Assembly (NCBI GenBank): GCA_012523405.1
Contig: JAAYIN010000067.1
Location: 1 to 58,948, forward strand
From: Clostridiales bacterium
Lineage (GTDB): Bacteria; Bacillota; Clostridia; Christensenellales; Aristaeellaceae
DNA: 58,948 bases
Direction: 5' to 3'
The notes under the pieces were generated by a model. The model was not told the DNA's origin. It made no database searches and was given only the letters and a program-made list of their open reading frames with translations. Positions 12,359 to 14,416 of this stretch are shown in pieces (positions within the stretch are counted from its first letter, which is position 1; each line of letters opens with the position of its first letter). Both the position numbers and the translations under genes were made by a program.

Positions 12359-13900
12359 TTACTTTGCGTAGTCGGTTGCGCGGGTTTCGCGAATGACGTT
12401 GACGCGAATCTGACCAGGATACTCTAGCTCGCGCTCAATGCGCTTGGCTACTTCCTTGGCGAGTACGCGTGTGCCGTCGTCCGTGATGTCCTCAGGCTTC
12501 ACCATGATGCGAACCTCGCGGCCGCTCTGGATAGCGAAGCACTTTTCAACACCCTGGAAGCTTGTTGCGATCTCTTCCAGCTTCTCAAGACGCTTGATGT
12601 AGTTCTCCAAAGATTCGCGGCGTGCACCCGGACGAGCTGCGGAAATAGCATCAGCGGCTTGTACCAGTACAGCTTCGACTGTCTGGGGCTCAACGTCGTT
12701 GTGATGAGCGAGGATGGCGTGGATGACGTCGGGGCTCTCGCGGTACTTGCGTGCCAGCTCTGCGCCTAGGGTTACGTGTGTGCCCTCAGCCTCGTGGTCA
12801 ACACCCTTACCGATATCATGCAGTAGACCTGCACGCTTTGCCAGCGCAACGTCTGCGCCAAGCTCTGCTGCCATCATGCCTGCCAAATGGCTGACCTCGA
12901 TGGAGTGCTTGAGTACGTTTTGACCATAGCTTGTGCGATAGCGCAAACGGCCAAGAATCTTGATCAACTCATGGTGGATACCATACTGATGGGTTTCAAA
13001 TACGGCTTGCTCACCAGCTTCGCGAATCTGGTTGTCCACTTCTTTGCGGGCCTTGTCAACCATTTCTTCAATGCGGGCGGGGTGAATGCGGCCATCCATG
13101 ATCAGGCGCTCGACTGCAATACGAGCAATCTCGCGGCGAATGGGATCAAAGGCGCTAACGATGACTGCCTCTGGCGTGTCGTCAATGATCAGATCAACGC
13201 CTGTTGCGGTCTCAAGTGCACGGATGTTGCGGCCTTCGCGGCCAATGATGCGGCCCTTCATATCATCGGAAGGCAGGTTGATAACGGAAACGGTGCTCTC
13301 TGCGACATGGTCAGCAGCACATTTTTGAATCGCCAATGCGATGATGTTTCGGGCTTTTTTCTCGCCCTCCTCTTTCGCACGGTTTTCGGTTTCGCGAACC
13401 ATAGCGGCTGCATCGTGATAAGCATCCTTTTGGATGCGGCTGACTAAGATTTGGCGAGCCTCGTCTTGGGTCATGCCTGCGATGCGCTCAAGCTCAACGA
13501 ATTGTTTTTGCTGACCTGCATCAAGCTCCTCCTGTGCTTTTTGAAGATCATTGGTTTTTTTCACCAACGAATCTTCACGATTTTCAAGAGAATCTTGTTT
13601 TTTATCAAGGGTTTCTTCACGCTGCAAAATGCGGCGCTCACTGCGCTGAACTTCGGCGCGGCGATCGCGGCATTCGCGATCTAGTTCTGTCTTTAGCCGA
13701 AGAACTTCTTCTTTGGCTTCCAGAATGGTTTCTTTTTTCTTTTCGTCTGATTTACGCTGTGCGTCTTCAAGTAGATTCTTTGCATATTCCTCAGTACGAC
13801 CGATTTTCTTTTCGCCAGCCTGCTTACGATACATGTATCCGCCGGTGGCGCCCAAGACAGCCGTCACGATAGCAATTAGTATAGCAACAATAACACTCAT
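12359..13900 (-). CDS. rny: Ribonuclease Y
   Basis: RNase Y is the membrane-anchored endoribonuclease that starts mRNA decay in most Firmicutes. The 513-residue protein has an N-terminal membrane helix (residues 3-22), a long charged coiled coil (about 28-190), a KH domain with [15 protein letters not shown] (about 215-235) and an HD domain with [12 protein letters not shown] (about 355-366) for metal-dependent cleavage. The start is ATG with AAAGGAG upstream. A terminator-ended structured RNA lies just upstream in the same orientation, which raises the possibility of leader control. Confidence 0.97.
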
Positions 13901-13976
13901 GTCTTTTCTCCTTTCTTTTCAATCTGTTCTTCTCAAAAAATTATTTTCCATATTTAGTCGACACTTCCGAAATATA

Positions 13977-14304
13977 CAAAAAGCCGACGAGACAAGCTCG
14001 TACGGCTACTGTATGATTCGTATTCTGGGACTGCACACCTATTTTGCGTGGGAACGATGACATACAAAAACAAAGCAATACCTTTGTCAATGGCATTGAT
14101 CTTTTTATATCCATGCACACCTGCGCAGCATAAAAGTGCAAACCAAGTTATATACCCATGCAAACGCGCCAAGGCGTCTTCGTAAGCAAAGCCCGTTATT
14201 CTTGCAAAAATTATCTAGCAATAGCATCGGGGAAAGCCAATTGGTGGGGATATATCACAAAACAGCTAGGCTCTGTTGCAATGCAGTAAGCCTATTTAGC
14301 CGAC
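13977..14304 (-). ncRNA. Candidate structured RNA (~327 nt) or terminated leader upstream of rny
   Basis: A consensus promoter (TTGACA-17-TATAAT, 14339-14311) starts a minus-strand transcript near 14304, and a GC hairpin with T5 ends it near 13977. No convincing protein frame with a ribosome-binding site lies between. The ends can pair: CGGCTA near the 5' end with TAGCCG near the 3' end, then ACTGCA with TGCAGT, CCTA/TTTTG with CAAAA/TAGG, and TATATCC with GGATATA, giving a rod-like fold. I do not recognise tmRNA, RNase P, SRP or T-box signatures. It is either a stand-alone small RNA (a long 6S-like rod is one option) or a transcription-attenuation leader of rny, whose start is 77 nt past the terminator. 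Confidence 0.55.
13978..14007 (-). terminator. Intrinsic terminator of the RNA upstream of rny
   Basis: On the minus strand AGCCGTACGAG / CTCGTCGGCT (one bulge) with a 5-nt loop is followed by TTTTT. The 5' arm includes the TAGCCG that can alternatively pair with the 5' end of the transcript. Confidence 0.85.
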
Positions 14305-14310
14305 TACATT

Positions 14311-14339
14311 ATTATAGACGGTTTGTTATGCCGTGTCAA
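14311..14339 (-). promoter_or_regulatory. Consensus promoter for the RNA upstream of rny
   Basis: TTGACA (14339-14334), exactly 17 bp, TATAAT (14316-14311), all on the minus strand. It is the only perfect consensus promoter noticed in the window, in keeping with a highly expressed RNA. Confidence 0.85.
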
Positions 14340-14387: not shown

Positions 14388-14416
14388 TTGACATTGACAG
14401 AAAAAAAAGATATCAT
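14388..14416 (+). promoter_or_regulatory. Promoter of the surface-glycan cluster
   Basis: TTGACA (14388-14393), a 17-bp spacer with an A8 run, and TATCAT (14411-14416). It probably drives the six-gene cluster to 22635, leaving a 5' leader of about 145 nt before the preferred GTG start. Confidence 0.7.

Follow-up and report, generated by a model that had tools for sequence, protein, structure and literature searches.

A putative cis-acting attenuator in the 5′ leader of the RNase Y gene rny of an Aristaeellaceae bacterium and its relatives

Positions 13977-14304 of a stretch of clostridial DNA most probably (we estimate about 0.8) form the 5′ leader of the rny mRNA and act in cis as an attenuator or switch that is absent from Rfam. 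The leader lies in a window of 58,948 nt, by which we mean the whole stretch of DNA analyzed (Clostridiales bacterium, Aristaeellaceae; GCA_012523405.1, contig JAAYIN010000067.1), and it is read on the minus strand, as are its promoter, its terminator, and rny. Comparison with related sequences places it directly ahead of rny, identifies one strand common to a closing helix (P1) and the terminator, uncovers two output platforms, and ties the leader nearly exclusively to rny in 200 genomes. The RNA would be made from the promoter and would switch, with closed P1 as its presumed ON state.

The controlled gene encodes RNase Y, a main RNA-degrading enzyme. Its product scored 766.5 bits against the TIGR03319 ribonuclease Y model (cut-off 454.35) and carries the Pfam domains RNase_Y_N, KH_1, and HD; RNase Y identity among genus members is 87-90%. 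The terminator ends 77 nt before the rny start (13900). The sequence-only reading had described the stretch, without naming its strand, as lacking a protein frame and as bracketed by a perfect promoter and an intrinsic terminator, and all three points were borne out: both signals are present (Table 1), bounding a putative noncoding transcript of ∼327 nt, and the minus strand of the leader stretch holds no ORF of at least 80 aa, the lower limit of the ORF list. Beyond the promoter, the divergent neighbor gene, read from 14570, encodes a family 2 glycosyltransferase (PF00535), and a divergent promoter, TTGACA-17-TATCAT (11/12; 14388..14416, plus strand), stands ahead of it.

Table 1. Features of the rny leader and its gene in window coordinates
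Feature	Position	Strand	Basis or remark
Sigma-A type promoter TTGACA-17-TATAAT, for leader and rny	14311..14339	-	12/12 match
P1 5′ strand CGGCUA, extreme 5′ end of the transcript	14297..14302	-	Presumed start ~14304
P2 hairpin UAGGCUU..GAGCCUA	14267..14294	-	Fold compared with shuffles
P3 5′ strand from GCUGU, with conserved GAUANA (here GAUAUA, 14256..14251)	14251..14266	-	
Variable leader middle (putative sensor region)	14019..14250	-	
GGGUAUAU in the variable middle, recurring among genus members	14157..14150	-	
P3 3′ strand AAUCAUACAG, ends approximate	14009..14018	-	Window fold
P1 3′ strand UAGCCG, also terminator 5′ arm (switch strand)	14003..14008	-	
Intrinsic terminator AGCCGUACGAG-CUUGU-CUCGUCGGCU-UUUU, U5 tract	13978..14007	-	
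Shine-Dalgarno AAAGGAG of rny	13908..13914	-	Sequence
rny, RNase Y, 513 aa, controlled gene	12359..13900	-	TIGR03319 + Pfam

A DNA similarity search of 60 genomes recovered the element from 7, the window's own included, all of them in the window's genus. We therefore collected rny upstream regions directly; 30 loci belonged to related genomes and 80 to named contigs, mostly metagenome-assembled genomes of uncultured Clostridia. A promoter matching at least 10 of 12 consensus positions occurred within the searched range at 106 of the 110 loci, and 60 of those 106 carried the 5′ core (CGGC, a hairpin, then GCUGU..GAUA or a near form). Five rows that duplicated others wholly or nearly (L041, L069, L070, L072, and L075) were removed, leaving 55 leaders. 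The 46 loci lacking the core were distributed by tree position as 2 from the same clade, missed by the pattern, 10 from a sister clade, 12 family members (one a duplicate omitted from the tree), and 22 that are more distantly related. Inspection by eye revealed same-clade leaders that the extraction pattern had overlooked (L076, L134, and L138).

All 14 same-genus rny genes collected (L039-L052) have a 12/12 promoter 369-439 nt ahead of the start codon with a spacing of 17, except for 18 in L051, against a chance expectation of 3.7 promoter-like sites at 9/12 or better per 4 kb on both strands. These genes came from 14 of the 17 genomes of the genus, the other three comprising one rny fragment and two genomes with no match. 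In all 55 leaders CGGC starts 8-10 nt past the -10 box; CGG(C/T) belonged to the pattern by which leaders were selected, whereas its distance from the -10 box did not. Promoters between the terminator and the rny start showed no excess (2 of 52 leaders, 2.6 expected), and in nine relatives whose upstream region is short, the promoter lies 98-127 nt before rny.

The folding energy of the leader alone is unremarkable (z -1.5, with 6 of 100 shuffles equally good); it is the comparative evidence, not the folding energy, that marks the leader as more than chance. P2 varies in sequence from leader to leader, and in 51 of 55 leaders its fold outscores 95% of mononucleotide shuffles of the same hairpin (mean z -3.2). 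GATA is present in 47 of 55 leaders, a count favored by the extraction pattern itself, and GATACA or a near form recurs in the sister clade. The middle of the leader is poorly conserved in sequence, with a span from CGGC to its partner of 119-358 nt (median 227.5; 52 leaders); its most enriched tetramer, picked post hoc, is CAUA, which 37 of 52 leaders contain where 19.5 would be expected. Folding of the nascent leaders predicts P3 in only 42 of 52. Downstream, the terminator U tract starts 54-100 nt before the start codon across leaders, and 47 of 52 carry a Shine-Dalgarno-like motif ahead of rny. Among the long-range pairings proposed earlier, CGGCTA/TAGCCG proved to be real and conserved, and is our P1. 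Two others gave way in the predicted fold: TATAT of TATATCC pairs with ATATA of GGGTATATA instead of with GGATATA, and the ACTGCA supposed to meet TGCAGT sits inside hairpin P2.

The evidence for a switch centers on P1 and the terminator. In 52 of 55 leaders the GCCG partner of CGGC doubles as the 5′ arm of the terminator, under a rule that tolerates two defects; the three that fail it (L051, L052, and L136) have terminators visible by eye. Because the CGGC and GCCG cores had served to find the leaders and terminators, P1 could be tested on its flanks only, for which we used a stricter terminator rule that left ten of the 55 leaders without a terminator and hence 45 for the test. At the inner flank (+5 to +7), 99 of 135 cells pair, compared with 80.6 (sd 3.5) in shuffled sets, and none of 5000 shuffles scored as high; the set retained at least two misplaced rows (L040 and L090), and the shuffles ignore relatedness. 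Covariation was absent from the outer flank (-2 and -1; 34 of 90 against 29.8, with 379 of 5000 shuffles as high) and from positions +8 and +9. By this comparison of sequences, the inner P1 flank covaries.

Predicted ensembles agree with a competition for the common strand. In the nascent RNA, just before the second arm of the terminator is made, mean P1 probability is 0.96 and exceeds 0.5 in 51 of 52 leaders; once the terminator is complete, predicted P1 falls to 0.13 and the terminator reaches a mean of 0.79, exceeding 0.5 in the full transcript of 38 of 52 leaders. When the first 12 nt were shuffled, GCCG paired with any 5′-end sequence at 0.34 rather than 0.96. For the window's own leader, the terminator state (-92.4 kcal/mol) and the P1 state (-87.6 kcal/mol) differ by 4.8 kcal/mol, and both retain P2 and nearly all of P3. 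In these models P1 and the terminator are mutually exclusive and have a strand in common, as is characteristic of an attenuator. With the part 5′ of GAUA removed in silico, the terminator's mean probability rose from 0.79 to 0.91; among the 16 leaders with a terminator below 0.6, the same removal gave a mean of 0.81.

The switch that we propose would work as follows. RNA polymerase would start at the perfect promoter, and CGGCUA would pair with UAGCCG some 300 nt later, forming a P1 that encloses P2 and the long P3 arm. With P1 closed, the terminator would be blocked and rny transcribed (ON); with P1 open, transcription would end and a leader of ∼325 nt would be released (OFF). In the sister clade, an open P1 would leave CACACUUUUU free to cover the Shine-Dalgarno sequence, applying the same logic to translation.

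We placed these leaders on a tree of 103 RNase Y proteins, built by a quick method and with no root inferred. The 56 terminator-type rows form one clade (SH-aLRT 99), joined by L076, L134, and L138, and its sister group consists of the Shine-Dalgarno rows (SH-aLRT 93); the nine relatives with short upstream regions fall outside both leader clades. One origin, with the output diverging later, is the simplest reading of this sequence-based tree.

The sister clade comprises ten rows (L091, L092, L103, L106, L110, L111, L116, L118, L119, and L121). A terminator scan found none in six of these leaders; L091, L103, and L111 gave weak hairpins followed by poor T runs, and L106 gave a weak one that overlaps the anti-Shine-Dalgarno strand, so the absence of terminators from this clade is a matter of degree. 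The 5′ end, GUCAAAGUG..GUGUG, can pair with the P1 3′ strand CACACUUUUU, which can alternatively pair with the Shine-Dalgarno sequence AAGGAGUGUG. All ten rows carry the motif AAGGAGUGUGA, a count to be read with the fact that the motif helped to choose them, and those rows make up the entire clade in the RNase Y tree; GAGTGTG occurs in none of 52 terminator leaders. Before the Shine-Dalgarno sequence is made, eight rows have a predicted pairing of 0.73-0.99 between the anti-Shine-Dalgarno strand and the 5′ end; L121 has 0.50 and L116 has 0.00. Predicted masking of the Shine-Dalgarno sequence in the full leader reaches at least 0.70 in only 5 of 10 rows; once the 5′ part is taken away, 7 of 10 reach at least 0.87, L103 and L116 stand at 0.30 and 0.00, respectively, and L111 goes the opposite way, from 0.70 down to 0.28. 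Neither pairing of the anti-Shine-Dalgarno strand is predicted for L116. Both L103 and L116 retain AAGGAGUGUG but have an altered anti-Shine-Dalgarno strand (CGCACUUUU and GUGCUUUUUU, respectively), changes that may reflect decay or re-wiring of the switch.

Two further groups of rny leaders were observed. In Desulfotruncus, Desulfoscipio, and Pelotomaculum (L140, L141, and L146), the rny leader is closed by a long predicted helix, roughly 5′ AGAAA.UAGAAUU with 3′ GAUUCU.UUUCU, that adjoins a terminator ACCGAG..CUCGGU-U8; the architecture resembles that of the window's leader family, and the sequence differs from it. Attenuation of rny may extend beyond that family. Three other loci (L056, L114, and L131, the latter two from Pullichristensenella) have a promoter at -223 to -257 and a GAUAGAUUCCCC or GAUAGAUUCCCG motif upstream of rny. 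No terminator was found in them by eye, and they may represent a third version of the leader.

The link to rny was surveyed in 200 genomes of the family with a model of the 5′ core (R2), trained on 28 relatives' leaders, all of them upstream of rny; some of the training species were also among the genomes searched. Another model, R1, was too narrow, and R2 was used instead. R2 matched 58 places in 56 genomes. For 51 of these the rny position was listed, and 47 lie 238-492 nt upstream of the gene on the same strand; the remaining four are one complete leader at a contig end and three weak matches (E 0.007-0.009, where ∼2 are expected by chance) with no rny within 2 kb around. The seven matches lacking a listed rny position all precede rny. 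In total, then, 54 of 58 matches precede rny, or 52 of 53 at E <0.005, the remaining one being the contig-end case. That case aside, no match at E <0.005 stood in another gene context in the 200 genomes. The window's own genus is beyond the reach of R2, which gave no match in the window's genome, and membership of the genus in the leader family rests instead on position, motifs, common strand, and tree. A stricter pattern matched in 10 of 200 genomes, eight of the matches preceding rny by coordinates and that in G141 doing so too. In G106, an exact 5′-core match (L188, G106:C225:13434-13480) has no rny in its locus, and the rny gene and R2 match of that genome sit on another contig; the L188 match is probably due to chance.

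No family of Rfam 15 matched the window at its gathering score, and even at E up to 10 the matches were at chance level. Eleven loci yielded only two tRNAs (L144 and L060), and six further loci searched at E up to 1 yielded two matches, both below gathering. T-box matches were absent from the window and from these 17 loci, 12 of which have terminator- or Shine-Dalgarno-type leaders. The genome's own 6S RNA (RF00013) is on contig C110 (63.6 bits), and the window contains neither a tRNA nor a tmRNA. The earlier statement that none of the usual housekeeping RNA signatures could be found by eye stands, and we discarded 6S, tmRNA, RNase P, SRP, and T-box as identities for the leader.

Who or what would set the switch, and whether the element is a switch of rny at all, can be weighed against these results. 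The length and rod-like fold might suggest a diverged housekeeping RNA, a reading that the Rfam searches, the separate 6S gene, and the absence of tRNA and tmRNA from the window render scarcely credible. Nor does a ribosome-dependent attenuator with a leader peptide fit well, for while a terminator and an antiterminator exist, an ORF of at least 8 codons behind a Shine-Dalgarno-like motif occurs in only 4 of 52 leaders and in unrelated places; we regard it as very improbable. A stand-alone structured noncoding RNA whose gene merely lies upstream of rny would explain the strong promoter and terminator and Rfam's failure to name the leader, and the ∼325-nt leader released in the OFF state would look identical on a Northern blot. 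This alternative is nevertheless improbable, given that nearly all matches precede rny, that other rny promoters are not in excess, that a P1 strand is common to the terminator or anti-Shine-Dalgarno pairing, and that the short-upstream relatives have a similar promoter close to rny. Of the sequence-only proposal of a new regulatory RNA, we therefore keep the regulatory, structured character and the absence from Rfam and give up the free-standing gene, as the leaders precede rny and have the P1 strand in common with the terminator.

The remaining alternatives accept the switch and differ in its signal. If a small molecule or ion were bound by the leader, this would be a new riboswitch class controlling RNA decay. 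P1 competes with the terminator as in riboswitches, the clades exchange terminator and anti-Shine-Dalgarno platforms while keeping GAUANA in both, CAUA is enriched in the middle (the post hoc count above), and GAUANA and CAUA, as conserved motifs, might just as well form a ligand pocket. Riboswitches usually, if not obligatorily, have several target genes of one pathway, whereas no second target gene appeared among the 58 matches in 200 genomes; the middle is also poorly conserved in sequence, and we consider a ligand unlikely. Control by a different RNA-binding protein or by an RNA acting in trans, for which nothing specific speaks beyond the fact that protein-bound leaders are common in general, seems somewhat less likely again.

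Our favored trigger, to which we give a little under even odds, is feedback by RNase Y on its own leader, as the single-gene use suggests. Plentiful RNase Y would cut or bind the middle of the leader, the 5′ strand of P1 would be lost, and the OFF structure would form; a cut that frees the OFF structure fits both platforms. Rather more tentatively, the leader may be a gauge of RNase Y activity: intact, it would keep P1 closed and call for more enzyme, and once cut, it would form the terminator or hide the Shine-Dalgarno sequence. The B. subtilis enzyme is reported to prefer G↓A with U upstream, in AU-rich, little-structured RNA with structure downstream (PMC11780869). Motif evidence for cleavage at GAUA is mixed: GAUA does contain the preferred G↓A dinucleotide, but predicted folds place it mainly in helices (mean unpaired 0.31, with 13 of 52 leaders above 0.5), and just 5 of 47 terminator leaders have a U directly before its G. 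Timing also speaks against an RNase Y trigger: as a membrane enzyme, RNase Y would need to reach the leader before the polymerase has moved beyond the terminator.

If the gauge were true, an endoribonuclease would adjust how much of itself is made through transcription attenuation or masking of the ribosome site, not by decay alone, and evolution would have swapped two output platforms around a single sensor. With a terminator version in one clade and a Shine-Dalgarno version in its sister, nature offers two constructs for probing what is sensed. The leader is in any case an RNA family missing from Rfam 15, and its placement here corrects its likely reading as a free noncoding RNA. Titles and abstract openings of the papers listed in literature searches on RNase Y and rny regulation describe no rny leader of this type, and rny, ymdA, and RNase Y are absent from the main text of two papers on candidate structured RNAs (PMC6429828 and PMC2864571). 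Within that scope, the leader is likely to be new in print.

Among known systems, 6S RNA (RF00013) is similarly rod-like and has a strong promoter; the leader differs in lacking an RF00013 match, in a genome with its own 6S elsewhere. Another parallel is the pbuE adenine type riboswitch, an ON-type attenuator in which P1 competes with the terminator. As there, the P1 3′ strand of the leader is the terminator 5′ arm, closed P1 would be ON, and relatives have a translational variant; unlike it, the leader has one target gene seen, a long variable middle, and no Rfam match. With E. coli the likeness is one of purpose: in the passages of PMC3997798 considered here, the rne 5′ UTR and the rnc leader show an endoribonuclease's own leader setting expression, in other enzymes and RNAs, with mRNA decay adjusted and no attenuator named. 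The same passages report that RNase E, PNPase, and RNase III likewise control their own messages, and describe RNase self-control as decay of the enzyme's own mRNA (PMC3997798). In B. subtilis, according to one study, RNase Y cleaves the 164-nt 5′ UTR and the coding region of the rny message, lowering its own mRNA and synthesis (PMC10303841). Both systems have a long untranslated leader on the same gene, which makes enzyme feedback plausible here as well; the B. subtilis leader, at 164 nt, works through RNase Y cleavage and RNase J1, and the word "terminator" is absent from the main text of that paper (PMC10303841). The leader described here has, by comparison, a closing helix whose putative switch works through a terminator or an anti-Shine-Dalgarno strand; a conserved switch of this kind, acting before or at translation, would be another route of RNase self-control.
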